This document shows positions 5,811-38,194 of a stretch of DNA of 47,960 nucleotides, piece after piece (within the stretch, counting starts at the first letter, position 1; each line of letters starts with the position of its first letter). The notes under the pieces are model-generated. The model did no database searches. It was not told where the DNA came from and saw only the letters and a program-made list of their open reading frames with translations. The translations under genes and the position numbers were made by a program. The DNA comes from Burkholderiales bacterium (GTDB lineage: Bacteria > Pseudomonadota > Gammaproteobacteria > Burkholderiales > Casimicrobiaceae): the NCBI GenBank assembly GCA_025354165.1, contig JANXNI010000082.1, forward strand, positions 1 to 47,960, read 5' to 3'.

Positions 5811-5926
5811 CAGCTTTTCCTTGAAATCCATACTACACCGGGGGCAGCTGACTTTTTTTCGATAAGTCGACAAAGATCGTTTATCCGCGCAATCCCATTT
5901 GCAGTGGTCACTTTACACAAAAGCTG
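5811..5926. repeat. Dispersed palindromic repeat, copy A
   Basis: About 116 bp between the DMT gene (its stop lies 2 bp beyond the right end) and the importer operon. It begins CAGCTTTTCC and ends ACAAAAGCTG, giving terminal inverted repeats, and it contains the core AAGTCGA and the right-arm sequence CAGTGGTCA shared with copy B. It could act as a hairpin terminator for the DMT gene or be a mobile MITE-like element. Confidence 0.7.
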
Positions 5927-9456: not shown

Positions 9457-9573
9457 TAGCTTTTTCATGAATCGATTGCCGCACAAGGGCTGAGCCTTTA
9501 TTTTGGCAATAGTCGATAAGCCGCAATTATCGAATTCAGCCCCTATGCGGTGGTCAATTTAGAGAAAAGCTGT
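9457..9573. repeat. Dispersed palindromic repeat, copy B
   Basis: The best-preserved copy. The ends AGCTTTTTC (9458-9466) and AAAAGCT (9565-9571) are inverted. A second arm pair, CCGCACAAGGGCTGA (9479-9493) and TCAGCCCCTATGCGG (9536-9550), pairs with two mismatches. The centre TCGATAA/TTATCGA (9513-9519, 9527-9533) forms a perfect 7-bp stem with a 7-nt loop. The whole element could fold into one long interrupted hairpin. It ends 43 bp before the sigma-1 start codon. Confidence 0.75.
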
Positions 9574-9616
9574 ATCACCTTGTTGCATTGTTGTAGTTCC
9601 ATTGCAAAATGCCGTG

Positions 9617-10216
9617 ATGCCTGCCTCACCGACCCTTCTCGTTCAGCGCGCCGCCGCCGGTGATTCCGAAGCGATGCGCTCGCTTTTTTCGACGCTCTAC
9701 CCTGACATCAAGCGCCTGGCGCGCAGTCGACTGGCGCAGGCTGGCGGCATCACAGGGCTTAACGCGACGGCCTTGGTGCATGAAGGCTTCATGCGCATGG
9801 CCGAGCGCGAGGGTTTGCAGGGGCAAACGCGGCTGCAATTTTTCGCCTACATCGGCAAAGTATTGCGTTCGGTGGTGATCGATTACGTGCGTGAGCGCGA
9901 CGCCGAAAAACGCGGCGGCGGCATGACCTTGATGACGATGTCGGCAGCCGACGCAACGCCCGCGCCGTGGATGGACGTGACCGATATGGTGGCGCTCGAT
10001 CAGGCGCTCGATCATCTGCAAAAGCTGGATTTGCGCCTGTATCAGGTGATCGAATTGCATGTGTTTTCCGGTATGTCGCTGCAGGAAGTCGCCGACGAGC
10101 TGAGCGTGACGCTGCGCACCGTCAATCGCGATTTGCTCAAAGCGCGGGCCCTGCTGGCAAACGCCCTGGGCACGCCCACGCCCGATTCTGATTCTGATTC
10201 TGATTCTGCGAATTGA
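9617..10216 (+). CDS. ECF-type RNA polymerase sigma factor, copy 1 (kinase-linked)
   Basis: Sigma factor of 199 aa in the family usually described as sigma-70 ECF-like and linked to Hanks kinases (ECF43-like; PF07638 type). Region 2 runs over residues 20-95 with FAYIGKVLRSVVIDYVRERDAEKRGGG in several pieces, and region 4 (about 130-190) holds the HTH LQEVADELSVTLRTVNRDL. The region-2.2 acidic motif is replaced by N49-A50-T51-A52 followed by LVHEGF. The ATG at 9617 is preferred to the upstream TTG at 9602. The C-terminus ends in an Asp-Ser repeat, (DS)4, encoded by a GATTCT repeat. It is followed 56 bp later by its probable partner kinase. Target and phosphorylation are inferred. Confidence 0.9.
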   Translation: MPASPTLLVQRAAAGDSEAMRSLFSTLYPDIKRLARSRLAQAGGITGLNATALVHEGFMRMAEREGLQGQTRLQFFAYIGKVLRSVVIDYVRERDAEKRGGGMTLMTMSAADATPAPWMDVTDMVALDQALDHLQKLDLRLYQVIELHVFSGMSLQEVADELSVTLRTVNRDLLKARALLANALGTPTPDSDSDSDSAN

Positions 10217-10272: not shown

Positions 10273-11907
10273 ATGAGCGATCCTCTTAATCTCCAGACCA
10301 TTCCGCAGCAAACCTGGCAGCGCGTCTCCGATTTATTTGACGAAGTGATTGAGCTGGCCGAAGGCGATCGCATCACCTTCATCCGAAAGCTCTGGGGCAC
10401 CGAGCCACTCGTGGCCAGTGAGCTGGCAGCGCTCCTCGTTGCAGCTGCAAAAGTAGAGAAATCGCCGAAGCTGGCACAAGCTCCGTTTGATTCAGTGTTG
10501 AGCGATGCGTTGGCCAAACAAAACGCCGCCAACGCAGCCTACAAACCGGGCCAAAAATTCGGCCCGTGGACGCTCGAAGAATGCATCGGCCAGGGCGGCA
10601 TGGGCGAGGTCTGGCGCGTGAAGCGAAGCGACGGGCTGTACAAGGCTTCAGCCGCGCTGAAAATCGTTCGCAGCGATCTCTCCAACGAAAAACTGGGTGC
10701 CCGTTTTCGTCGTGAACGCGTCGTGTTGGCGCGGCTCAATCATCCAAACATTGCCCGGTTGCTCGACGCCGGTATCGAGCAAAACCAGCCCTTCATCGTG
10801 CTGGAACTGGTCAAGGGCATGCCCATGCTCGACTACGTCACGCTGCACACAAAAACGCTGGCGGATCGATTGCGTTTGATCCGTGACATCGCACTGGCCG
10901 TGGAGCATGCGCATAGCCAACTGGTGTTGCATCGTGATCTGAAACCATCGAATGTTTTGGTGACGGCCGACGGCCAGATCAAGCTTCTCGATTTCGGTAT
11001 CGCCGGGGTGCTCGACAGCAGCAGCGAAGAGCCGATGACCAAGCTCACGCAGCTCACCGGTCGCGGCCTCACGCTGGAATACGCCTCGCCCGAGCAAATC
11101 ACTGGCGAGGCAACGGTGGCCGCGAGCGATGTCTATTCGCTGGGCGTGCTGCTGTTTCATCTGTGCACCGGCAACCGTCCGTTCGCAGGCAGCAGCACAC
11201 GCGCCGCGCTCGAATACGCGATGGTCAACTCGGATCCCCCGCGCCCATCGGCGAGCATCGCCACGCAAAACGCCGACCCGAACAACCCGGCGCTCGCTGA
11301 TCAAATCAATCCACCGGTTGACGCTTATCGTTTGCGTGGTGACCTCGACGCCATCATCAGCCGCGCGATGCGTCTGGTGCCCGCCGAACGCTACCCGACC
11401 GCAGCAGCGCTCGCCGCAGATCTCGACGCATGGATGACCGGGCGGCCCACGTCGATGCATGCCGGTGACCGCACGTATGCATCGCGCTTGTGGTTCAAGC
11501 GGCACTGGAAAATCGTCAGCGCAATCGCCGCATCGGTCGTGCTCGTCATCGCCGCGCTGGGCGTCAGCCTGTGGCAACGCAGCGTCGCCATCGGCGCGAC
11601 GGAGGCGACTGCGCGCCACCTTGACGGCGTGATGGCGCAGTTGCCCGCGCTGGGCACCATTGACAGCGAGGCAACGGTTGAAGCCAAGCGTCAATACGCC
11701 GCGTTACTGCTACGCCTGAACCGCCCCATAGACGCTTTGACGGTCGTCGATGAGGCGCTGTCCCTTGTAGCGGCCAAATACGGCAAGACGAGTCCGATTT
11801 ACGGCAAACTTTTGCTCGGGCGCAGCGCGGCACTGGATGCGCTGGGTCGCACCGACGAAGCCCGCACGGCGCAACGCGAGGCGGCGCGGATTGTTGAGTC
11901 CAAGTGA
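10273..11907 (+). CDS. Transmembrane Hanks-type Ser/Thr protein kinase, copy 1
   Basis: Kinase of 544 aa. Residues 1-95 form an N-terminal helical region, then the kinase domain: glycine loop GQGGMGEV (106-113), catalytic Lys130, HRDLKPSN (220-227), DFG (240-242), and SPE in place of APE (272-274), so all catalytic residues are present. One membrane segment lies at about 413-434 (IVSAIAASVVLVIAALGVSL). The C-terminal 110 residues look like one or two TPR units and would lie in the periplasm. It is closely similar to the second kinase (15038-17962), but its C-terminal sensor region is far shorter. The position after sigma-1 suggests that it phosphorylates that sigma factor. Confidence 0.92.
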   Translation: MSDPLNLQTIPQQTWQRVSDLFDEVIELAEGDRITFIRKLWGTEPLVASELAALLVAAAKVEKSPKLAQAPFDSVLSDALAKQNAANAAYKPGQKFGPWTLEECIGQGGMGEVWRVKRSDGLYKASAALKIVRSDLSNEKLGARFRRERVVLARLNHPNIARLLDAGIEQNQPFIVLELVKGMPMLDYVTLHTKTLADRLRLIRDIALAVEHAHSQLVLHRDLKPSNVLVTADGQIKLLDFGIAGVLDSSSEEPMTKLTQLTGRGLTLEYASPEQITGEATVAASDVYSLGVLLFHLCTGNRPFAGSSTRAALEYAMVNSDPPRPSASIATQNADPNNPALADQINPPVDAYRLRGDLDAIISRAMRLVPAERYPTAAALAADLDAWMTGRPTSMHAGDRTYASRLWFKRHWKIVSAIAASVVLVIAALGVSLWQRSVAIGATEATARHLDGVMAQLPALGTIDSEATVEAKRQYAALLLRLNRPIDALTVVDEALSLVAAKYGKTSPIYGKLLLGRSAALDALGRTDEARTAQREAARIVESK

Positions 11908-11922
11908 CAACTGTTTTGCAAG

Positions 11923-12037
11923 CAGCTTTTAACTGAAACGGCGTGTGATCCGGGGCTGACGCTATTTTTTACAGAAAGTCGATAATGCGTATTATCAGCC
12001 GCTTGCCCTCATGCTGCGGTGATTTTGGCGAAAAGTC
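11923..12037. repeat. Dispersed palindromic repeat, copy C
   Basis: Starts CAGCTTTTAACTG and ends GGCGAAAAGTCG, with the core AAAGTCGATAAT at about 11975-11986 and a central stem GATAAT/ATTATC (11981-11986, 11991-11996) around a GCGT loop. The left arm CGGGGCTGA and the right arm ATGCTGCGGTGATTTT match copy B. It begins 16 bp after the kinase-1 stop and ends 46 bp before the sigma-2 ATG, the same arrangement as copy B and sigma-1. Confidence 0.7.
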
Positions 12038-12083
12038 GTTCGCATTTCGCAACTCCCGAGGAACCGTTGCAGAATGACGCTTG

Positions 12084-12704
12084 ATGCGCTCTGATTCCAC
12101 CTCACCTTTGCCACCCTCGCCGCGCCAGCAATCGTCTACGCCAACGCCCACCGTCCTCGTGCAACGCGCTGCCGACGGTGATGCCGGCGCGATGCGAGCG
12201 TTGTTCACCGAGCTGTATCCCGACATCAAACGCCTCGCGCGCTCAAAACTTGCGCACGCTGGCGGCGTCACCGGGCTCAACGCCACAGCGCTCGTGCATG
12301 AGGGTTTCATGCGGATGGCGGAGCGCGAAGGTTTGCAGGGTTCGACGCGGTTGCAGTTTTTCGCGTACGTTGGCAAGGTGTTGCGCTCCATCGTCATCGA
12401 CTTCATTCGCGAACGCGACGCGGATAAACGCGGCGGCGGCGTCAAACTGCTCACCATGTCAAACGCGGACGCTTCGCCTGCCGTATGGATGGAAAGCGCC
12501 GATCTGATTGATCTGGATCGCGCGCTGGACGAGCTCAAATCCTTCGACGAACGGCTCTATCAAATCGTCGAAATGCATGCGTTCTCCGGGCTCTCCTGCA
12601 CTGAAGTCGGCATCGAGCTGGGCGTCACGGAGCGCACCATCAATCGCGACCTCGCGAAGGCACGCGCCCTGCTCGCGCAGGCGCTCGGCACTGCGGCTGC
12701 CTGA
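12084..12704 (+). CDS. ECF-type RNA polymerase sigma factor, copy 2
   Basis: A 206-aa paralogue of the sigma factor at 9617, nearly identical in motifs: VLVQRAADGD, LYPDIKRLARSKLAHAGG, then N66-A67-T68-A69 in place of the acidic region-2.2 motif, and the region-4 HTH CTEVGIELGVTERTINRDL. It has an extra Ser/Pro/Thr-rich N-terminus of about 17 residues. The ATG at 12084 is used; a TTG immediately before it is an alternative. Unlike copy 1 it is not followed directly by a kinase but by the S74 surface-protein gene. Its regulator could be either nearby kinase. Confidence 0.9.
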   Translation: MRSDSTSPLPPSPRQQSSTPTPTVLVQRAADGDAGAMRALFTELYPDIKRLARSKLAHAGGVTGLNATALVHEGFMRMAEREGLQGSTRLQFFAYVGKVLRSIVIDFIRERDADKRGGGVKLLTMSNADASPAVWMESADLIDLDRALDELKSFDERLYQIVEMHAFSGLSCTEVGIELGVTERTINRDLAKARALLAQALGTAAA

Positions 12705-12770: not shown

Positions 12771-12803
12771 ATGTCGGACTTTTCTCCGCGTTGCGTCTAT
12801 CGC
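12771..12803 (+). promoter_or_regulatory. ECF-type promoter P1 (surface-protein gene)
   Basis: ATGTCGG (12771-12777) is followed by 13 nt and then TTGCGTCTATCGC (12791-12803). The CGTC element is typical of ECF -10 boxes. The same two blocks with identical spacing, plus a shared TTTTCT in the spacer, lie upstream of the OmpA-like gene at 18020. The distance to the ATG at 12849 leaves an untranslated leader of roughly 40 nt. Confidence 0.65.
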
Positions 12804-12848
12804 CGGACGAAAGACGAATTCGTCAACATTCAAGCGGAGGTGCGGTCT

Positions 12849-14792
12849 ATGTTTACTTTATTTCAGAGGTGCAAGGCGGTCACGGTGATTGCCTTGTCAG
12901 GCGTACTGGCGTGGTTGCCGATTTCAGCGAGCGCGCAAACGTGTCCGTTCGACGACGGCAACTCGTCGCTGGCGGTCGAAGGATTGGTGCTCACTCGCTA
13001 TGCGCTCGGGCTTACGGGTGCGCCGCTGGTGGCCAATTCCGGTATCAATGCAGTCGATGCGCCCACCGTAGAAGCTGCGATCAACTGCCACAGTTGCGGG
13101 CTCAACATTACCGGCAACCTGACCATGACCGTGGCCGACGCCACCATCATCAGTCGCAAGCTTGCAGGAATGACCGGCAGCGCGCTCACCAACGGCCTCG
13201 CGCTCGGCAGCGGAACGCGCAACACGTCCGCTGCGGTGCAGAGCTTTTTGCTGTCGGGATGCGGTGCGACCGGCGGCACAGTCACCGGCATCACGGCCGG
13301 AACCGGCCTCACGGGCGGCACCATCAGCGCCAGCGGGATCATCGCTGCCGACACTACGTATTTGCAACGACGCGTGAGCGCGTTTTGTTCAGTAGGACAG
13401 AGCATTCGCGCCATCGCTGCCGACGGGACCGTAACTTGCCAAACAGATTCGACGGGATCACCGTACGCTTTCGTGCTTTACGGAAACGCTTTTGGCACGG
13501 CGGGCGTGCTCGGCACCAGTGACGACCAGGACATGAAAGTCGTCGCCGGTGGCAGCAAGGTGAGCCTTGAGGTCGCGGGCGGCAATGGCCTGCGCGTATT
13601 TAAAACCACTAGCGTGCCGAGTTCACCCAACGTCGTCAACGGCTCAGTGAGCAACACCTCAACGAACATCAATTATGCGGGCGTGATGATTGGCGGAGGC
13701 GGCAGCTCAAACACTAACTGCTACGCGCCCGCAACAGCAACGAATAACCGACCGTGCGCCAATCGTACAAATTCCAACTACGCAACCATCAGTGGCGGAC
13801 TTGCGAATTCCGTTACGGGCAGCTCGGGCGGTTATGTTGGAGGCGGCGAATCAAATACCGCTGGGGGCGATTACGCCACCGTTAGCGGAGGAATTAGCAA
13901 CACGGCGCTCACACAAAGCGTGGTGGCAGGAGGCGTTTCCAACATCGCAAACGGCTTTGATAGCGCGGTGGGCGGTGGCGCAAACAACACCGCAGGCGGA
14001 AGCTACAGCGCTGTGCCCGGCGGAAATCTCAACGTCGCTGGCGGTGCCACGAGCCTGGCCGCAGGTAATCGCGCTAAGGCCACGCACGATGGCTCATTTG
14101 TCTGGGGCGATAGCGTCGCCGCAGACGTTACCACCACTGCCGACAACCAGTTCGTCATCCGCTCGACGGGTGGTGTCCACCTGAGCCCGCCAACGCGCCT
14201 GTATTTCGGGATGCAAACCCGGCAAATGATTAATCTGTGGGGAACCAGCGCCACCACGCCTGACGAATTCGGCATTGGTGTGCAGACGGCCGCTGCTTAT
14301 TTCCGCTCGAACAGTAATTTCTGCTGGTTCAAGGGTGGTACGCACAGCGACACTTTTTGCACGCCAGGAGGCAGTGGTACTGTGCAGATGGCGTTGCGCG
14401 ACACGGCTGCTGCCATCACCGCAGTCGGGCACTTGTACGCTGCGTCGTTCAATATTGGAAGTGATCGCGCCGTGAAGACGGCGATTCAATCGATCAACCC
14501 ACGCAATGTGTTGAGCAAAGTGCTGGCGATGCCGATCACCAGCTGGGCCTACAAAACCGACCACAAAACTCGCCACATTGGCCCGATGGCGCAAGACTTT
14601 CACAAGGCGTTCGGCTTGGGCGGAAGCGAAAAGTCCATCGCCACAGTGGACGCCGACGGCGTAGCGCTAGCGGCGATTCAAGGGCTGCACCAAATCGTTA
14701 AAGACAAACAATCGAGGATCGAGGTGCTAGAGAAACTGAACGCGACCATGCATAAAAAACTGGCAGCCATTGAAAAGCGTTTGGGAATGTGA
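12849..14792 (+). CDS. Secreted YadA-head-like surface protein with S74 self-cleaving chaperone domain
   Basis: Predicted exported protein of 647 aa. The signal peptide covers residues 1-29 (ends SASA, then QTC). Next come two dockerin-like or degenerate EF-hand segments (DGNSSLAVEGLVLTRYALG and TVADATIISRKLAGMTG). A glycine-rich region at about 280-420 has 14-residue repeats of the YadA head type (GGDYATVSGG, GGGANNTAGGSYSAVPGG). The C-terminus is an intramolecular chaperone (peptidase S74) with S538-D-R-A-V-K543, matching the Ser-Lys dyad spacing of endosialidase, then a coiled coil. The start at 12849 has a GGAGG ribosome site; a reading from 12771 would begin on the promoter. It is expected to trimerise and self-cleave; the surface role is unknown. 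Confidence 0.85.
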   Translation: MFTLFQRCKAVTVIALSGVLAWLPISASAQTCPFDDGNSSLAVEGLVLTRYALGLTGAPLVANSGINAVDAPTVEAAINCHSCGLNITGNLTMTVADATIISRKLAGMTGSALTNGLALGSGTRNTSAAVQSFLLSGCGATGGTVTGITAGTGLTGGTISASGIIAADTTYLQRRVSAFCSVGQSIRAIAADGTVTCQTDSTGSPYAFVLYGNAFGTAGVLGTSDDQDMKVVAGGSKVSLEVAGGNGLRVFKTTSVPSSPNVVNGSVSNTSTNINYAGVMIGGGGSSNTNCYAPATATNNRPCANRTNSNYATISGGLANSVTGSSGGYVGGGESNTAGGDYATVSGGISNTALTQSVVAGGVSNIANGFDSAVGGGANNTAGGSYSAVPGGNLNVAGGATSLAAGNRAKATHDGSFVWGDSVAADVTTTADNQFVIRSTGGVHLSPPTRLYFGMQTRQMINLWGTSATTPDEFGIGVQTAAAYFRSNSNFCWFKGGTHSDTFCTPGGSGTVQMALRDTAAAITAVGHLYAASFNIGSDRAVKTAIQSINPRNVLSKVLAMPITSWAYKTDHKTRHIGPMAQDFHKAFGLGGSEKSIATVDADGVALAAIQGLHQIVKDKQSRIEVLEKLNATMHKKLAAIEKRLGM

Positions 14793-14807
14793 GTTGCGAT
14801 TTTGAAT

Positions 14808-14832
14808 GCCCGTTGCACATGGCCTGACGGGC
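14808..14832 (+). terminator. Weak stem-loop after the S74 gene
   Basis: GCCCGT and ACGGGC form a 6-bp stem around a 13-nt loop, 16 bp after the stop codon. No T-run follows, so terminator function is uncertain. Confidence 0.25.
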
Positions 14833-14885
14833 GAATAATCATAAAAGCTTTACTCTTTCCCGCGCGCGCCTTGATCCAATGCAGA

Positions 14886-15041
14886 ATGTTGGAAAGAGAG
14901 GCCATTTTGCAGTCATCATTGGTGCCGACAGTTCCCGTGCAGTGCGCCGCCAGCGGAGATACTGTGGCAAAGCGCGACTTGTTTACCAGGACATATCGCG
15001 ACATCAAGCAACTTGCATTCTTATCGTCTAACACTCGATGA
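14886..15041 (+). pseudogene. Truncated ECF sigma factor remnant (copy 3) fused to kinase start
   Basis: A 51-codon frame whose residues LVPTVPVQCAASGD and DLFTRTYRDIKQLAF align with the N-terminus of both intact sigmas (TLLVQRAAAGD, SLFSTLYPDIKRLAR). The similarity stops just before region 2.2; everything after, including all of region 4, is missing. The stop overlaps the start of the second kinase as ATGA. It cannot work as a sigma factor, but the frame is open and may persist as a leader that couples translation to the kinase. The upstream sequence TGCAGAATG is shared with sigma-2. Confidence 0.75.
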
Positions 15042-17962
15042 GCACGCCTTTCAACGTTCGCAGCGAAGCCTGGCCCCGCGTATCTGCGCTCCTGGATCTT
15101 GCCTATGACATGGACGAAGCGGAGCGCGCACATTTGCTGGCGACAGTCATCGCCGACGACGCAGACTTGGGCGCGGAGTTGGCACGCCTGCTGCCCGCCA
15201 TTGCGGCTGCACAAACGAATATAAGCAGCGCCGACGCAGCACCGTTCACGGCCCTGTTGAGCGAAGCGCTCGCGCAAGCTGCGCAAACCGAAAGCCCAAA
15301 CAGCGCGGGCACACTGTTCGGCGCATGGACGCTCGCCGAAAAGATTGGCATGGGCGGGATGGGCGAGGTCTGGCGAGCGCAGCGCAGCGACGGCTTGTTT
15401 AACGGAGCCGCCGCGATCAAACTATTGCGCAGCGACTTGCCCGCCGACAAACTCGCAGCCCGATTTGCTCGCGAGCGCGCCGTGCTGGCGCGCCTCAATC
15501 ATCCGAATATTGCACGCTTGCTGGATGCAGGCATCGCCAACGAACAGGCCTTCATCGTCCTGGAGTTGGTGAAGGGCGAACCCCTGCTCGCGTTCGCTGC
15601 CACGCGCGCGCCCAGCCTCGCGAGCCGCGTGCGGCTGATCCGCGACATCGCGCACGCGGTTGAGCATGCGCACAGCCAGCTCGTGCTGCATCGTGATCTA
15701 AAACCCTCGAATGTTTTGGTCGCAGGCGACGGCACAGTGAAGCTGCTCGACTTTGGCATCGCGGCCGCACTTGATGAGGCGACCAGCGCCGACACGACGC
15801 CAAATCTCACCCAATTAACCGGGCGCGGTCTCACGCTCGAATACGCCGCACCGGAGCAAATTCTCGGCGAGCCGACCGTCACCGCGAGCGACGTGTATTC
15901 ACTGGGCGCAATGCTGTTTCATCTCGCTACCGGACAGCGCCCGTTCGCAGCGAAGGCCAATCGCGCTGCGCTTGAATATTCCGTAGTGCATGACGAAGCG
16001 CCTCGCGCTTGGACTTCCGTGGTGCGCCGATACGACGCGACAACGAAAGCTGACGAAATCACGCCGCCGTCGGACGTCAAAGCGCTCAACGGTGATCTCG
16101 ACGCCATCATCGCAAAGAGCTTGCGAAAACTGCCGACAGAACGCTACGCGACTGCCACTGCTTTCGCCAACGATCTCGATGCGTGGCTCACGAAATCGCC
16201 AATCTCAATTCGAGCGGATGATCGCAGCTATCGCACGCGGCTTTGGTTGTGTCGCAATTGGCGGTTGGCAGCATTGGGTGGCGTTGCAGTCGCGGCCATC
16301 ACTTTGGGGCTCGGTGTCAGTCTGTGGCAGCGAAACGTTGCCGTCAACGAAGCGGCACGGGCGACCGACGAAGCCAGCCGCGCCAGCAAAGTGGCCGACT
16401 ATCTGGGAGAGCTAATTCAGAGCGCCAGCCCCGACAATCACGGCGGAAATTGGCCAACCGTCATCGCACTTCTGGAGCAATCCGAAAAGGATATTGACGA
16501 AAAATTCAGGGACGACCCGAAGACAAAATCGCTGTTGTTGGAGCGAATGGCCGACACCAATAATGCGCTCAACCGCAATATGGTGGCCCTTGCCCAGTAC
16601 GAAGCACTGCTGTCAACCTTGGAAAAATCCGGGGAGACGGGCACTGCGCGCGCAATCGAGGTGCGCTCGAACTATGCCTCGATGTTGGGGCGCGTTGGAC
16701 GCCACGAAGACGCGCTCAAGCAGAATGAAATGCTGAAGGAAACAATCGCGGCGCTGTATGGCATGCAGAGCGAACAATACGGAAACGTGCTGTTGAATAT
16801 CGCAACCGGTGCGGCGAGTGTCGGTCGCCACGATGAAGCCCGCGCGTTGCAGAAAGAAGGCGCGGCGATTCTCACAAAGGTGTTTCCGAATGACCTGAAA
16901 AAGCGTGTAAATATCGCGAACGACGTAGCGGTGGGTTTCACCCGACGCGCGATGTGGCGTGAGGCCGAAGCTGCGCTCGCTGCAGTAGAGACCGACTTTC
17001 CAGCATTTGCCGCCTTGGGCAACGTCTCTACGCGAGATGCGCTGGTGCAACGAAACAATCTGGAAAGTATTCGCATCCGCCTTGGCAAATTTGACGCTGT
17101 TGATGCGCGTTTGCAGGCCAATTCGGTGGCGGCCACTGCACTGTTGGGGGTCGACAATCAGATTGCCTACGCCAGCGAGGATTTGCGCGCAACGCTCGCT
17201 GCGTCAGAGGGTCGATTCGCCGACAACTACGCGCTGACGCAGATCAGAATCGAATCCATTCGACGGCAGAAAGGCTTCAATCCCGCTGATCGAATCGTGG
17301 AGGAGCTGATACTAATTCGCGACGCATCGATCCATGATCGGATCAACGCGGGCAACATAGTTGCCCGGACGAAAGCCGTCGAAAGCCGTGCACTGTTGCA
17401 AAAACTCGTATCGGCCATTGCGATAGAAATTCCACAGCCGGGCCTGAGCCGGAGCTACGCTTATCGAACGGCCATTGACACTGCTGTTACCACGCAGCAA
17501 TTAAATATTGCGCGGGAAGCACTGCGCCTGGCACGTGAAAACACACGACTGGCTGGGATAACGAATCCAGAGCGTCTGGCTCAACTGGATCGTGCCGAAG
17601 CCGCGATCATGTTCGCTGATGGCGACGGACGGCGTGCCGTAACCTTGCTTCAGTCACGATTTGATTTGTACGAAAGAGTGGGTGAAGGCGACACGCCGCG
17701 CCGCGCGACTCTTTGGGTTCAGCGAGCGCTCTATGAATGCAGCTTTGATACGGATGCCGCAATGAAGTCGGCAACGCAAGCTCGCGATATTTTTAGTCGC
17801 ACGGGCGGTACTCCTCTGCAGTTTGTAGCGTTGTTGACGTACATCGATGCCCGAGTCAGTGGCGACAAGGCCCGCATCAAAGCTGCGGAAGAAGCCGTCG
17901 ACACCGCTTATCTACGCCAACGTAAAAGCGTCTGGTCACCGCCTCATTTGCCGAGCGTCTGA
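15038..17962 (+). CDS. Transmembrane Hanks-type Ser/Thr kinase with long TPR sensor region, copy 2
   Basis: Kinase of 974 aa. The order is an N-terminal helical region (1-90), a kinase domain with glycine loop GMGGMGEV (104-111), Lys128, HRDLKPSN (from 218), DFG (238-240) and APE (271-273), a membrane segment at about 406-431, and about 540 residues of TPR-like helical repeats (for example ALGRVGRHEDAL-type units near 550 and SVGRHDEARALQKEG near 600). It resembles kinase-1 through the kinase domain and membrane segment (shared ARLNHPNIARLLDAGI), so the two arose by duplication. The start overlaps the sigma remnant. The large extracytoplasmic part is the likely sensor. Confidence 0.92.
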   Translation: MSTPFNVRSEAWPRVSALLDLAYDMDEAERAHLLATVIADDADLGAELARLLPAIAAAQTNISSADAAPFTALLSEALAQAAQTESPNSAGTLFGAWTLAEKIGMGGMGEVWRAQRSDGLFNGAAAIKLLRSDLPADKLAARFARERAVLARLNHPNIARLLDAGIANEQAFIVLELVKGEPLLAFAATRAPSLASRVRLIRDIAHAVEHAHSQLVLHRDLKPSNVLVAGDGTVKLLDFGIAAALDEATSADTTPNLTQLTGRGLTLEYAAPEQILGEPTVTASDVYSLGAMLFHLATGQRPFAAKANRAALEYSVVHDEAPRAWTSVVRRYDATTKADEITPPSDVKALNGDLDAIIAKSLRKLPTERYATATAFANDLDAWLTKSPISIRADDRSYRTRLWLCRNWRLAALGGVAVAAITLGLGVSLWQRNVAVNEAARATDEASRASKVADYLGELIQSASPDNHGGNWPTVIALLEQSEKDIDEKFRDDPKTKSLLLERMADTNNALNRNMVALAQYEALLSTLEKSGETGTARAIEVRSNYASMLGRVGRHEDALKQNEMLKETIAALYGMQSEQYGNVLLNIATGAASVGRHDEARALQKEGAAILTKVFPNDLKKRVNIANDVAVGFTRRAMWREAEAALAAVETDFPAFAALGNVSTRDALVQRNNLESIRIRLGKFDAVDARLQANSVAATALLGVDNQIAYASEDLRATLAASEGRFADNYALTQIRIESIRRQKGFNPADRIVEELILIRDASIHDRINAGNIVARTKAVESRALLQKLVSAIAIEIPQPGLSRSYAYRTAIDTAVTTQQLNIAREALRLARENTRLAGITNPERLAQLDRAEAAIMFADGDGRRAVTLLQSRFDLYERVGEGDTPRRATLWVQRALYECSFDTDAAMKSATQARDIFSRTGGTPLQFVALLTYIDARVSGDKARIKAAEEAVDTAYLRQRKSVWSPPHLPSV

Positions 17963-18019
17963 AGTCGGCGAACGTCCGAAACATTGTGTGGCACTGTGCG
18001 TGCTACAGACGATTAGCGA

Positions 18020-18052
18020 ATGTCGGGATTTTCTATGGTTTGCGTCTATCGC
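18020..18052 (+). promoter_or_regulatory. ECF-type promoter P2 (OmpA-like gene)
   Basis: ATGTCGG (18020-18026), 13 nt, then TTGCGTCTATCGC (18040-18052). Both blocks and the spacing are identical to P1, and the spacer shares TTTTCT. The ATG at 18077 lies about 25 nt beyond the -10 element. Confidence 0.65.
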
Positions 18053-18076: not shown

Positions 18077-19141
18077 ATGCATCTCGATTTCAATTCAATC
18101 CGCCGCGATAAAGCTCGCGTCGTCGCCACCAGTTTTCTGCTATTTCTGTGTACTGTGGCTCACAGCCAAACACCTGTACCCACTGCGGATTTGACGGGTC
18201 TTTCCGATCCACCCGGACTCTCGCGCTTTGCTGGGTCGGTACTCGTCTATCGCAACGACTCGGCCTACGATGAAGTCAAACTGCCCGTCTCGAAAACAGC
18301 CAACGTTGATGGCAAAGTCGTCGCGCCGAAAACGCTGGATCGCGCCGGTCAGCGCGCAGCATTGCAATGCATAACGCCCGCGGGAAAGAGCGCGCTGGAA
18401 GTGCTACGCAACTATCAACAGGCAACCAAACCCGCTGGTTTTGAGACCGTTTACGAATGCGCGGGCGATGGCTGCGGACGCACGCCTGACATCAGTCGCT
18501 ACTACTTTGCTGCGCTGGTGATGCCGGAAAGCTACTGGGCCAGTGTTGGTGACCGGACGCCCGCCTATTGCGGCGGCAGCCAACGAATCGGTGATTTTCG
18601 TTACGCCGTGTTCGACAACAAGACCACCGGCGCAACGCTGGCAGTCATGACGTGGCGACCGGGTGACGTTTCGTCGTACTGCGTCGAATCGGATTACAAG
18701 TCGCGGGCCAGTGTTTTCGTCGTGAGCATTCAGCCGAAAGCGCGCGAACAGTTGATGGAAATGCTCACTGCATCGGAGATGGGTCAGAGCCTGACGGCAA
18801 CCGGAAAGGTCGCGGTGTACGGCATTTTGTTTGACACCAACAAAGCAGAAATCAAAGCAGAAAGCAAAGCTTCGCTTGATCAGATTGGCGCGCTACTGAA
18901 GCAACAGGAATCGCTCAAGCTGCATGTGGTTGGCCACACCGACAACGTCGGCAACCTGCCCGCCAATCTCGACCTCAGTAAGCGCCGCGCCGACGCAGTG
19001 GCAGCGGCGCTCAGGCGCGACTACGGCATCACGCGTGATCGTCTCACCGCGAATGGTGTTGGCAGCCTTGCGCCAGTCGCATCTAATGCGAGCGATGCGG
19101 GCAGGGCAAAAAATCGTCGCGTTGAACTGGTATTGCAATAA
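18077..19141 (+). CDS. OmpA-family outer-membrane/periplasmic protein (DUF4892-like N-terminus)
   Basis: Exported protein of 354 aa. After a signal peptide (about 1-33, ending AHSQ) the first 230 residues resemble DUF4892 (DPPGLSRFAGSVLVYRNDSAYDEVKLP as consecutive elements). The last 110 residues are an OmpA C-terminal domain: GILFDTNKAEIKAES, VVGHTDNVGN, LSKRRADAVAAAL and NRRVELVLQ, which bind peptidoglycan non-covalently. There is no beta-barrel. It follows kinase-2 after 114 bp and has its own ECF-like promoter. A role in envelope integrity is likely; the N-terminal function is unknown. Confidence 0.88.
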   Translation: MHLDFNSIRRDKARVVATSFLLFLCTVAHSQTPVPTADLTGLSDPPGLSRFAGSVLVYRNDSAYDEVKLPVSKTANVDGKVVAPKTLDRAGQRAALQCITPAGKSALEVLRNYQQATKPAGFETVYECAGDGCGRTPDISRYYFAALVMPESYWASVGDRTPAYCGGSQRIGDFRYAVFDNKTTGATLAVMTWRPGDVSSYCVESDYKSRASVFVVSIQPKAREQLMEMLTASEMGQSLTATGKVAVYGILFDTNKAEIKAESKASLDQIGALLKQQESLKLHVVGHTDNVGNLPANLDLSKRRADAVAAALRRDYGITRDRLTANGVGSLAPVASNASDAGRAKNRRVELVLQ

Positions 19142-19882: not shown

Positions 19883-19914
19883 ATGTCGCAGCTTGACTCG
19901 CGATTGCGTCTAAC
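19883..19914 (+). promoter_or_regulatory. ECF-type promoter P3 (peptidoglycan-binding gene)
   Basis: ATGTCGC (19883-19889), 14 nt, then TTGCGTCTAACG (19904-19915). It matches P1 and P2 in ATGTCG and TTGCGTCTA but has a spacer one base longer and a different spacer sequence. The ATG at 19948 is about 35 nt beyond. It is weaker evidence than P1 and P2 alone. Confidence 0.45.
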
Positions 19915-19947: not shown

Positions 19948-20862
19948 ATGCGCACTCTTAAACAGGGGGCCGTGGGGCCTGACGTTGCAGCAATGCAATT
20001 GCTGCTCAACACGATCCCGCAAACCTTGATCGCCCGGTTGGTTGAAGACGGCGTGTTCGGTCGCAAAACGACCGCACGCGTGATCGAATTTCAGAAGAAC
20101 GCGAAGCTCGTCGTCGACGGCGTGATCGGGCCTCAATCCTGGTTCATGCTCGACGAATTGACCAAGGCGCTGTTGCCCGGTGGCAAGCATCCGGCAGGGC
20201 TCGGCGCGTGGCGCGACGAACCGTTTCGTGAGGCGGTGCTTCGAGTCGCGCTGGGCGAAGCGTTGCCCGTTTCTAACGTCAGTGACTTTGTGTCAATGCC
20301 AGCGGTCATCGACCCGAACGAGCCGACGCCGCTAGGGAAAACACCGACCAAAACGCCCAGCAGTTTTCGCTTCGGCTGGCCGCGCCTGAAGCAGTATTAC
20401 GACGAAGCAGTGATCGGCGTCGGCCCCAATTTCTGGCGGCAAACCAACGAACTCAAAATCAATGGCCAGATCGAAATCATCACCCATCTCAACGGCGTGC
20501 GCGGCAATAACTGGCGCGTCCCGAATATCGCCGACCCCAACAAGGGTGGCATGCATTGGTGCGGCATCTTCGCCACCTGGTGCTGGATCAAGGGCGGTGT
20601 GCCAACTAAATGGCCATTTGGCGGGCCACCCGTTGGCATCAGGAAACGCGCCTTTTCGATGGGCGATTTGCCGAAACCGGGTGACATGTTGGTGCAGGGC
20701 GGGAGCCTCGTGCATCACAGCTTGTTGCTGCCCGACAGTGTCGGCAACGGTGATTTTTTAGTGGTAAACGGAAATTCAGACGGACAAAGCGTGTTGATCA
20801 AAACGATCAAGCGCCAATCCGTTGTAGCGGTCTACAGCCTGGAAGATTTCTCCCTGACGTAG
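19948..20862 (+). CDS. Peptidoglycan-binding protein with CHAP-like cysteine amidase domain
   Basis: Protein of 304 aa. Residues 1-70 form a PG_binding_1 domain (LKQGAVGPDVAAMQLLL, DGVFGRKTTARVIEFQ, VDGVIGPQSW). After a Pro/Thr linker the C-terminal half shows the Cys-His-Asn pattern of CHAP/NlpC-type enzymes: MHWCGIFATWCW, then LVHHSLLL, then VVNGNSDGQS, plus the PGD element KPGDMLVQGG. This suggests cleavage of peptide or amide bonds in murein. No signal peptide is visible, so it either acts from inside or uses another export route. It carries the P3 promoter and is convergent with adk. Confidence 0.8.
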   Translation: MRTLKQGAVGPDVAAMQLLLNTIPQTLIARLVEDGVFGRKTTARVIEFQKNAKLVVDGVIGPQSWFMLDELTKALLPGGKHPAGLGAWRDEPFREAVLRVALGEALPVSNVSDFVSMPAVIDPNEPTPLGKTPTKTPSSFRFGWPRLKQYYDEAVIGVGPNFWRQTNELKINGQIEIITHLNGVRGNNWRVPNIADPNKGGMHWCGIFATWCWIKGGVPTKWPFGGPPVGIRKRAFSMGDLPKPGDMLVQGGSLVHHSLLLPDSVGNGDFLVVNGNSDGQSVLIKTIKRQSVVAVYSLEDFSLT

Positions 20863-20890: not shown

Positions 20891-21864
<974 letters not shown>

Positions 21865-36932: not shown

Positions 36933-37302
36933 GGTGATGCTTTTTCACGCTGATTGAGGGATGATTACATTATCGACGAATCCAATAGCTTTTTAGTGCA
37001 ACGACTGTTTCACGCGGGGTATGCGTTATTTATTCAAAAAGTCGACTTATAAAATTTCTTCGCTTCAACCCCCATTTGTACGTTGTTTCAGGCCGGAGTT
37101 ATAAGGTCTATTTTTCTGGCAAAAGTAAACTGACTTTGTCGCTCGATCAGCGCGTGAAGGTCGATTCACCAGATCGATGAACGTCAGGCCAATGGATTGC
37201 AGGTAAGCGACACCAGCCGCACCAGGAGTCACGACAAGGTTGTTGCATCACTTTGATGGCTGCATAGAATCCGGCAATTCGCCCTCCATCACACCCTTCA
37301 CC
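36933..37302. other. 370-bp divergent gap with repeat copy D
   Basis: Contains copy D and the promoters of the divergent aminotransferase and TPR genes. A plus-strand frame from 37240 is an in-frame extension of the TPR gene from a TTG. No separate gene is supported. Confidence 0.5.
36985..37104. repeat. Dispersed palindromic repeat, copy D
   Basis: Starts ATAGCTTTTTAGTG and contains CGCGGGGTATGCGTTATT and AAAAAGTCGACTTAT, then CAACCCCCATTTGTACG. The right end is diverged, so the boundary is approximate. Confidence 0.55.
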
Positions 37303-38078: not shown

Positions 38079-38194
38079 ATAGCTTTTCTATGTATTCACC
38101 GCTGCATTGGGGCTAGCGCCTAATAATTTAAAAAGTCGATAATCGATCTAAATCGACATGAGCCCTTATACAGCGGGGATTTCAGCTAAAAGCC
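38079..38194. repeat. Dispersed palindromic repeat, copy E
   Basis: Starts ATAGCTTTTCTATG, contains CCGCTGCATTGGGGCT and AGCCCTTATACAGCGG as an inverted pair (13 of 16), the core AAAAAGTCGATAAT, and ends CTAAAAGCC. It lies between two convergent genes, 14 bp after the TPR gene stop. Confidence 0.7.

Follow-up and report, generated by a model that had tools for sequence, protein, structure and literature searches.

Among the genes of a window of 47,960 nt from a Burkholderiales genome, which is the whole stretch of DNA analysed here, lie two genes for ECF sigma factors (sigma1 and sigma2), genes for Hanks-type Ser/Thr kinases that neighbour sigma2, and two sites (P1 and P2) that share the elements of an ECF-type promoter (Table 1). 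This arrangement raises the question of whether the two sites are promoters of a common regulon and, if so, which sigma factor reads them. An earlier note on this DNA had described the cluster as coding for two ECF sigmas, and both do score above the TIGR02999 cut-off (139.4 bits for sigma2, against 126.15). In region 2.2 they carry NATA, an uncharged string with a threonine, in place of the canonical ECF DAED, and all 38 sigmas aligned in this work share this feature (NATA in 37, NATS in one). Genomes of this genus hold between 3 and 15 TIGR02999 sigma matches each (17 genomes; E up to 0.001, weak matches included).

Sigma factors of the ECF43 group are described, in the available excerpts of three papers (PMC8999054, PMC8103513, PMC13147305), as missing the acidic motif and as being activated via phosphorylation by a neighbouring Ser/Thr kinase. 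In having a threonine without an acidic motif, sigma2 resembles, according to the same excerpts, EcfP/PknT of Vibrio parahaemolyticus (STTA in region 2.2; PMC8103513) and EcfK/PknS of Xanthomonas citri (QATE; PMC13147305), and all three adjoin a Ser/Thr kinase gene. For EcfK, one test showed that the threonine of region 2.2 could be dispensed with, and sites in the linker are also of importance (PMC13147305, in excerpt). Unlike these systems, the present one has several such sigmas per genome and a proposed target promoter; the excerpts of the ECF43 literature searched yielded no target promoter motif. Kinase-linked ECF sigmas are found in many bacteria, and a readable target sequence would be a gain for this poorly mapped class of regulators.

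Table 1. Coordinates of the window features discussed in the text
Feature	Position	Strand	Details
Sigma1, TIGR02999 / PF07638 ECF-type sigma factor	9602–10216	+	start probably slightly downstream
Kinase 1, Hanks-type Ser/Thr kinase	10273–11907	+	Pkinase
Sigma2, TIGR02999 / PF07638 ECF-type sigma factor	12081–12704	+	NATA in region 2.2; start probably ATG 12084
Putative promoter P1	12771–12803	+	-35 TGTCGG 12772–12777, 16-nt spacer, -10 CGTCTA 12794–12799, then TCGC
Exported-looking surface protein	12849–14792	+	C-terminal Peptidase_S74 (endosialidase chaperone) domain; GGAGG 12836–12840
Kinase 2, Hanks-type Ser/Thr kinase	15038–17962	+	hydrophobic segment, TPR match, Pkinase
Putative promoter P2	18020–18052	+	-35 TGTCGG 18021–18026, 16-nt spacer, -10 CGTCTA 18043–18048, then TCGC
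Exported-looking OmpA-family protein	18077–19141	+	N-terminal part matches DUF4892 below cut-off
Weaker third site	19883–19912	+	ATGTCGC...CGTCTA, 17-nt spacer; before PG_binding_1 gene
PG_binding_1-domain protein	19948–20862	+	downstream of third site
113-bp repeat copies	5812–5924, 9458–9570, 11924–12036, 21659–21771, 36987–37099, 38081–38193		

Architecture and genomic distribution of P1 and P2

The two sites, of 33 bp each, read ATGTCGG-ACTTTTCTCCGCG-TTGCGTCTATCGC (P1) and ATGTCGG-GATTTTCTATGGT-TTGCGTCTATCGC (P2), and the earlier note was correct in placing ATGTCGG, an exact 13-nt gap and TTGCGTCTATCGC at both positions. Its reading of them as ECF-type promoters also holds: each site combines a CGTC -10 element with a -35 element 16–17 nt upstream and a downstream gene on the same strand, and P1 and P2 are in all likelihood promoters. 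Classical RpoE-type ECF promoters are bipartite, with a CGTC-type -10, a spacer of about 16–17 nt and GGAAC as the -35 element; P1 and P2 share the bipartite form, the -10 type and the spacer, and differ in their -35 element, TGTCGG. P1 precedes the surface-protein gene and, farther on, kinase 2, and P2 precedes the OmpA-family gene. Both immediate products look exported, as proposed (here and below, N-termini inspected by eye are the basis for calling a protein exported-looking). The start of the surface-protein gene at 12849, which the earlier note had preferred, is supported in two ways: a GGAGG lies 8 nt ahead of the ATG, and a paralogue on contig C12 has its start at the aligned position.

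At up to three mismatches, P1 and P2 are the only window matches to ATGTCGG-N13-TTGCGTCTA, and both are exact; shuffled windows gave a mean of 0.44 such matches, with two reached in 7 of 100 shuffles. The motif was picked after P1 and P2 had been seen, so that an independent test has to come from elsewhere. The whole genome (4.72 Mb, 97 contigs), searched with the downstream genes listed as the earlier note had proposed, contains exact TGTCGG-N15-GCGTCTATC at four sites: P1, P2 and two sites on C12 that played no part in noticing the motif. All four precede genes for proteins with export-type N-termini, the C12 pair standing before a short S74 paralogue and a cysteine-rich exported-looking protein, respectively. 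Since the same pattern at up to two mismatches gave 18 genome matches against 13 in the reversed control, and ATGTCGG-N13-TTGCGTCTA at up to three gave 45 against 36, the bulk of the loose matches is noise, above which only the four exact sites rise. The string TTTTCT in the gap, which had been noted as a further shared feature, is indeed present in both window sites, but these are the only two of the four exact sites to have it in common; it is kept neither on C12 nor at most sites of the genus, and we discard it as a component of the motif. The short S74 paralogue (L009:14147–14467) has kept promoter element and start and runs into a stop after about 80 residues.

Dispersed through the genome, too, is an imperfect palindrome with a constant length of 113 bp (AGCTTTT...GTCGA...AAAAGC), similar in kind to ERIC elements. 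Copies of it precede sigma1 and sigma2 in the window and, on visual inspection, the sigma genes of several relatives as well. The repeat arms gave 12 matches in 303 kb of own-genome stretches, of which two are the forward and reverse readings of a single palindromic copy, and none in the reversed control. As the centre of some copies reads (A/T)GTCGA...GCGTCTA with the same spacing, P1 and P2 might be remnants of this repeat, and several motif-like matches do belong to it: those on C1, C38 and C37 (1–3 mismatches) sit in copies identified by their arms, that on C39 was assigned by eye and added to the alignment, and that on C93 was recovered by a repeat model (R2) from outside its training set. 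R2 gives at least 150 genome matches, with some copies counted once per strand, and those on C39, C1, C38 and C37 (training) are also among the matches listed (the best 150 of 1404 candidates), whereas the motif-like matches on C4 and C87 are not. Against a repeat origin, none of the six copies in the window (four from the R2 training set) covers P1 or P2, the two C12 sites lie outside the C12 copies among the best 150 of 1404 candidates, and the repeat arms are absent, by eye, from the flanks of all four exact sites. With the sites lying outside the repeat copies listed, we reject this origin and regard it as the least credible of the alternatives considered.

Association of the element with sigma2-type genes

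Relatives of sigma2 were sought in 64 genomes, and the 39 found at E 1e-50 or better all come from this genus. A tree of 38 of them, built after two very distant sigmas had been excluded from a poorly resolved first version, contains a sigma1 clade of 10 (96/90), a sigma3 clade of 15 (100/100), 10 sigma2-type factors and three others. The sigma2-type rows form no single supported clade, and their grouping therefore rests partly on sequence likeness and on the partner kinase. The 39th relative (G016:C113) is probably identical to L211, and in the rebuilt tree the L211 sigma belongs to the sigma3 clade. The loci and the genomes are not independent sets, 28 of the 29 named locus contigs coming from the same assemblies as the genomes.

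Around each sigma gene, TGTCGG-N16/17-CGTCT[AT] was searched from -4 to +7 kb, as far as contigs reach. All 10 sigma2-type genes have the element in this span, with 17 sites in 85 kb and none in the reversed control. Within the same span, which contig ends shorten for several sigma1 and sigma3 genes, it was found at none of the eight sigma1 genes without sigma2 alongside, none of the 15 sigma3 genes (one match in the reversed control) and none of the three other sigmas. The two of the 10 sigma1 genes that do have it nearby belong to clusters also holding sigma2. One of the other sigma genes, in G002, is followed by a sigma2 gene at a distance of 6.6 kb, and the count for sigma genes without a nearby sigma2 is thus 0 of 25; related loci are not independent, and we attach no probability to the comparison. 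In nine of the 10 sigma2-type loci a site (TGTCGG in eight, TGTCGT in L103) stands at the 3′ end of the sigma gene, 0.58–0.78 kb past the start of its ORF, and is followed by a kinase gene in eight and by the S74 gene in the window; the kinase ORF of L109, as called, overlaps its site. In L100 no site was found between sigma and kinase.

Genus-wide (17 genomes), exact TGTCGG-N16/17-CGTCTAT has 16 matches against three in the reversed control, and 14 of the 16 precede kinase or exported-looking genes, so that the motif is not as common inside genes as upstream of them, a possibility that the earlier note had raised against its own reading. Of the other two, one lies inside a coding sequence (G003:C459) and one runs into the 3′-terminal part of a convergently oriented gene (G000:C45). 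The exact pattern is matched in eight of the nine genomes with a sigma2-type factor and in none of the eight without one; the single match of G003 is the coding one, G008 has none, and both carry CGTCTT or CGTCTG forms. Across all 64 genomes of the wider family, TGTCGG-N13/14-TTGCGTCTA is found six times, each time in one of three genomes of this genus, and its control twice. We also considered and rejected the idea that all TIGR02999 loci share one motif: TGTC[AG]-N17/18-CGTC[TA] gave two matches in 30 loci and none in the control (101 kb, flanks of up to 1.5 kb, some sigma1 and sigma3 loci included).

These comparisons bear directly on the identity of the reader. The earlier note had made both kinase-linked sigmas of the cluster candidates, and the link to kinase-associated sigmas stands; the involvement of both is less favoured, because no genus locus with sigma1 and no sigma2 carries the element (0 of 8), and sigma2 is likely the reader, the best supported by this comparative pairing. 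If sigma1 read both promoters, alone or with sigma2, the cluster would be one two-sigma circuit. The two genes do share a cluster, and their products differ little in the region-4 helices; indeed, the recognition helices of sigma1, sigma2 and sigma3 are very similar, so that sigma1 may read the sites too. Given the empty sigma1 loci and the absence of the exact pattern from the genomes without a sigma2-type factor, we hold a role for sigma1 to be unlikely.

A reader from another ECF family, such as the ECF42-type sigmas, was also weighed. The ECF42-type target sequence begins TGTCGA and resembles the -35 element of P1 and P2, and the five of 17 genus genomes with a sigma bearing DUF6596, which we take to be the mark of ECF42-type sigmas, all hold sigma2, with an exact-pattern match in all but G008. 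A DUF6596 sigma has, however, no match in the present genome (G000) and is likewise absent from G011, G015 and G006, all of which have sites, and this disfavours it as a general reader. We set the ECF42 candidate aside as very improbable, well below sigma1. Taking the evidence on all readers together, it is highly probable, on comparative sequence evidence, that P1 and P2 serve one regulon as promoters recognised by RNA polymerase with the kinase-linked sigma2.

Downstream genes and the proposed circuit

Relatives of the OmpA-family protein were sought in 60 genomes, with 23 matches, for 21 of which the ORF was located. TGTCG[GT]-N16/17-CGTC[TA], in which T was admitted after the G007 site was known, occurs from -300 to +120 nt relative to the ORF start in six of the 21 (control 0 of 21), all in this genus and the window's own among them. 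Six of the eight relatives that match over the N-terminal part have it, the misses being G025, from another genus, and G016. The comparison of intergenic regions in relatives, suggested in the earlier note, thus finds the element recurring before OmpA orthologues of the genus, with a spacer of 16 or 17 nt.

We assembled a table of 25 sites by hand, in which TGTCG and CGTCT are invariant because the search patterns demanded them. The matches of G000:C45 and G003:C459, one further L167 match, the window site at 19884, the sigma3-locus matches and two CGTCTG sites (L102:16956 and L102:19411) were left out. At the free positions, A precedes TGTCG in 21 sites, G follows it in 23 and T in two, most sites have TT just ahead of the final spacer base (22 and 23 of 25), and 17 continue with A after CGTCT; the distance from TGTCG to CGTC is 17 nt in nine sites and 18 nt in 16. 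The genes downstream code for kinases (eight), OmpA-family proteins (six), cysteine-rich exported-looking proteins related to each other (three), S74 proteins (two), DUF5122 proteins (two) and CARDB-like proteins just under the Pfam cut-off (two), the remaining two being other exported-looking genes after a kinase.

In the circuit that we propose, the kinase would sense a signal as input and its partner sigma2 would probably be turned on by it, the Hanks-type kinase phosphorylating the region-2.2 threonine. Active sigma2 would then bind TGTCGG and CGTCTA, driving the S74 surface protein from P1 and the OmpA-family protein from P2, and read-through from P1 into kinase 2 may close a positive loop. 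The ECF43 targets named in the available part of PMC8999054 are a type VI system and a polymyxin response, in contrast to the S74 protein, OmpA and other exported-looking proteins found here. A regulon made up of a kinase and of surface or envelope proteins suggests a surface-remodelling response. A searchable conserved element tied to one sigma type would make it possible to list regulons from genomes, to test which kinase drives which sigma and to ask what keeps a cell's several, nearly identical sigma-kinase pairs from interfering with each other.

A variant element and a predicted hairpin RNA at sigma3 loci

At 12 of the 14 sigma3 loci examined, a variant element, TGTC[AG]-N18-CGTCT, follows the kinase gene, its -35 part being TGTCG[CT] in nine and TGTCA in three; L172 and L176 have, by eye, altered elements. 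The narrower TGTCG[CT]-N16/17-CGTCT[AT] is found near 10 of 15 sigma3 genes (none in the control). The spacing of the third window site, at 19883, fits this sigma3-type variant, and the site could also be of chance origin; it is absent at the C83 paralogue.

Directly after the kinase gene, the variant element is followed by a stretch of 186–221 nt that ends in a T-run. A conserved multi-hairpin RNA is predicted from it at L107:5505–5725 (contig C81 of this genome), at 13 further sigma3 loci and at L235. Minimum-energy folds have six hairpin loops in 11 of 12 cases and five in L179, and the three RNAs folded with shuffles have z-scores of -6.57, -3.04 and -6.10. In all 12 folds, and by eye also in L172 and L176, the hairpin preceding the terminator has CCUCC in its loop. 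The last hairpin and terminator, aligned in windows selected by CCTCC, show clear covariation: 89% of cells pair against 74% in shuffled alignments, and 38 cells against 13.5 are changed on both sides, with the structure derived from the same alignment and the sequences being related. On the whole small-RNA alignment RNAalifold recovered nothing but the terminator, since the middle aligns poorly. Searches of the window, L107, L171, L177 and L181 against Rfam gave no match at or above a family's cut-off.

CCUCC-type loops are carried by the CcsR and cuckoo RNAs. These alphaproteobacterial small RNAs have an alternative-sigma promoter and a Rho-independent terminator, according to the accessible part of PMC10253847. 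The predicted sigma3-locus RNA resembles them in its putative alternative-sigma-type promoter, its terminator and its CCUCC loop, and differs in being betaproteobacterial, in lying directly after a Ser/Thr kinase gene and in having an ECF-type promoter variant; the excerpts of the literature searched contain no account of it.

We consider it reasonably probable, with less confidence than for the reading of P1 and P2 by sigma2, that paralogous kinase-linked ECF43-type sigmas of this genus have split one promoter code, with sigma2 directing kinase and envelope protein genes through TGTCGG and sigma3 directing the CCUCC RNA through the variant (TGTCG[CT] or TGTCA, N18, CGTCT). If true, this would constitute a pathway from Ser/Thr kinase through sigma to an anti-Shine-Dalgarno RNA, and the RNA of the sister sigma3 clade would add a post-transcriptional arm. 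The sigma-E-dependent small RNAs, which restrain envelope protein synthesis, are comparable in logic.

A model of the last hairpin and terminator (R1) gives scores of at least 52 bits to the 14 loci on which it was trained and 42 bits to G015:C254. This locus is preceded by TGTCACC...CTCCGTCT, and the ORF upstream of it matches the sigma3-locus kinase of L178 (1.9e-195). Weaker R1 matches, with E up to 0.01, occur in all 17 genomes among the best 150 candidates per genome.
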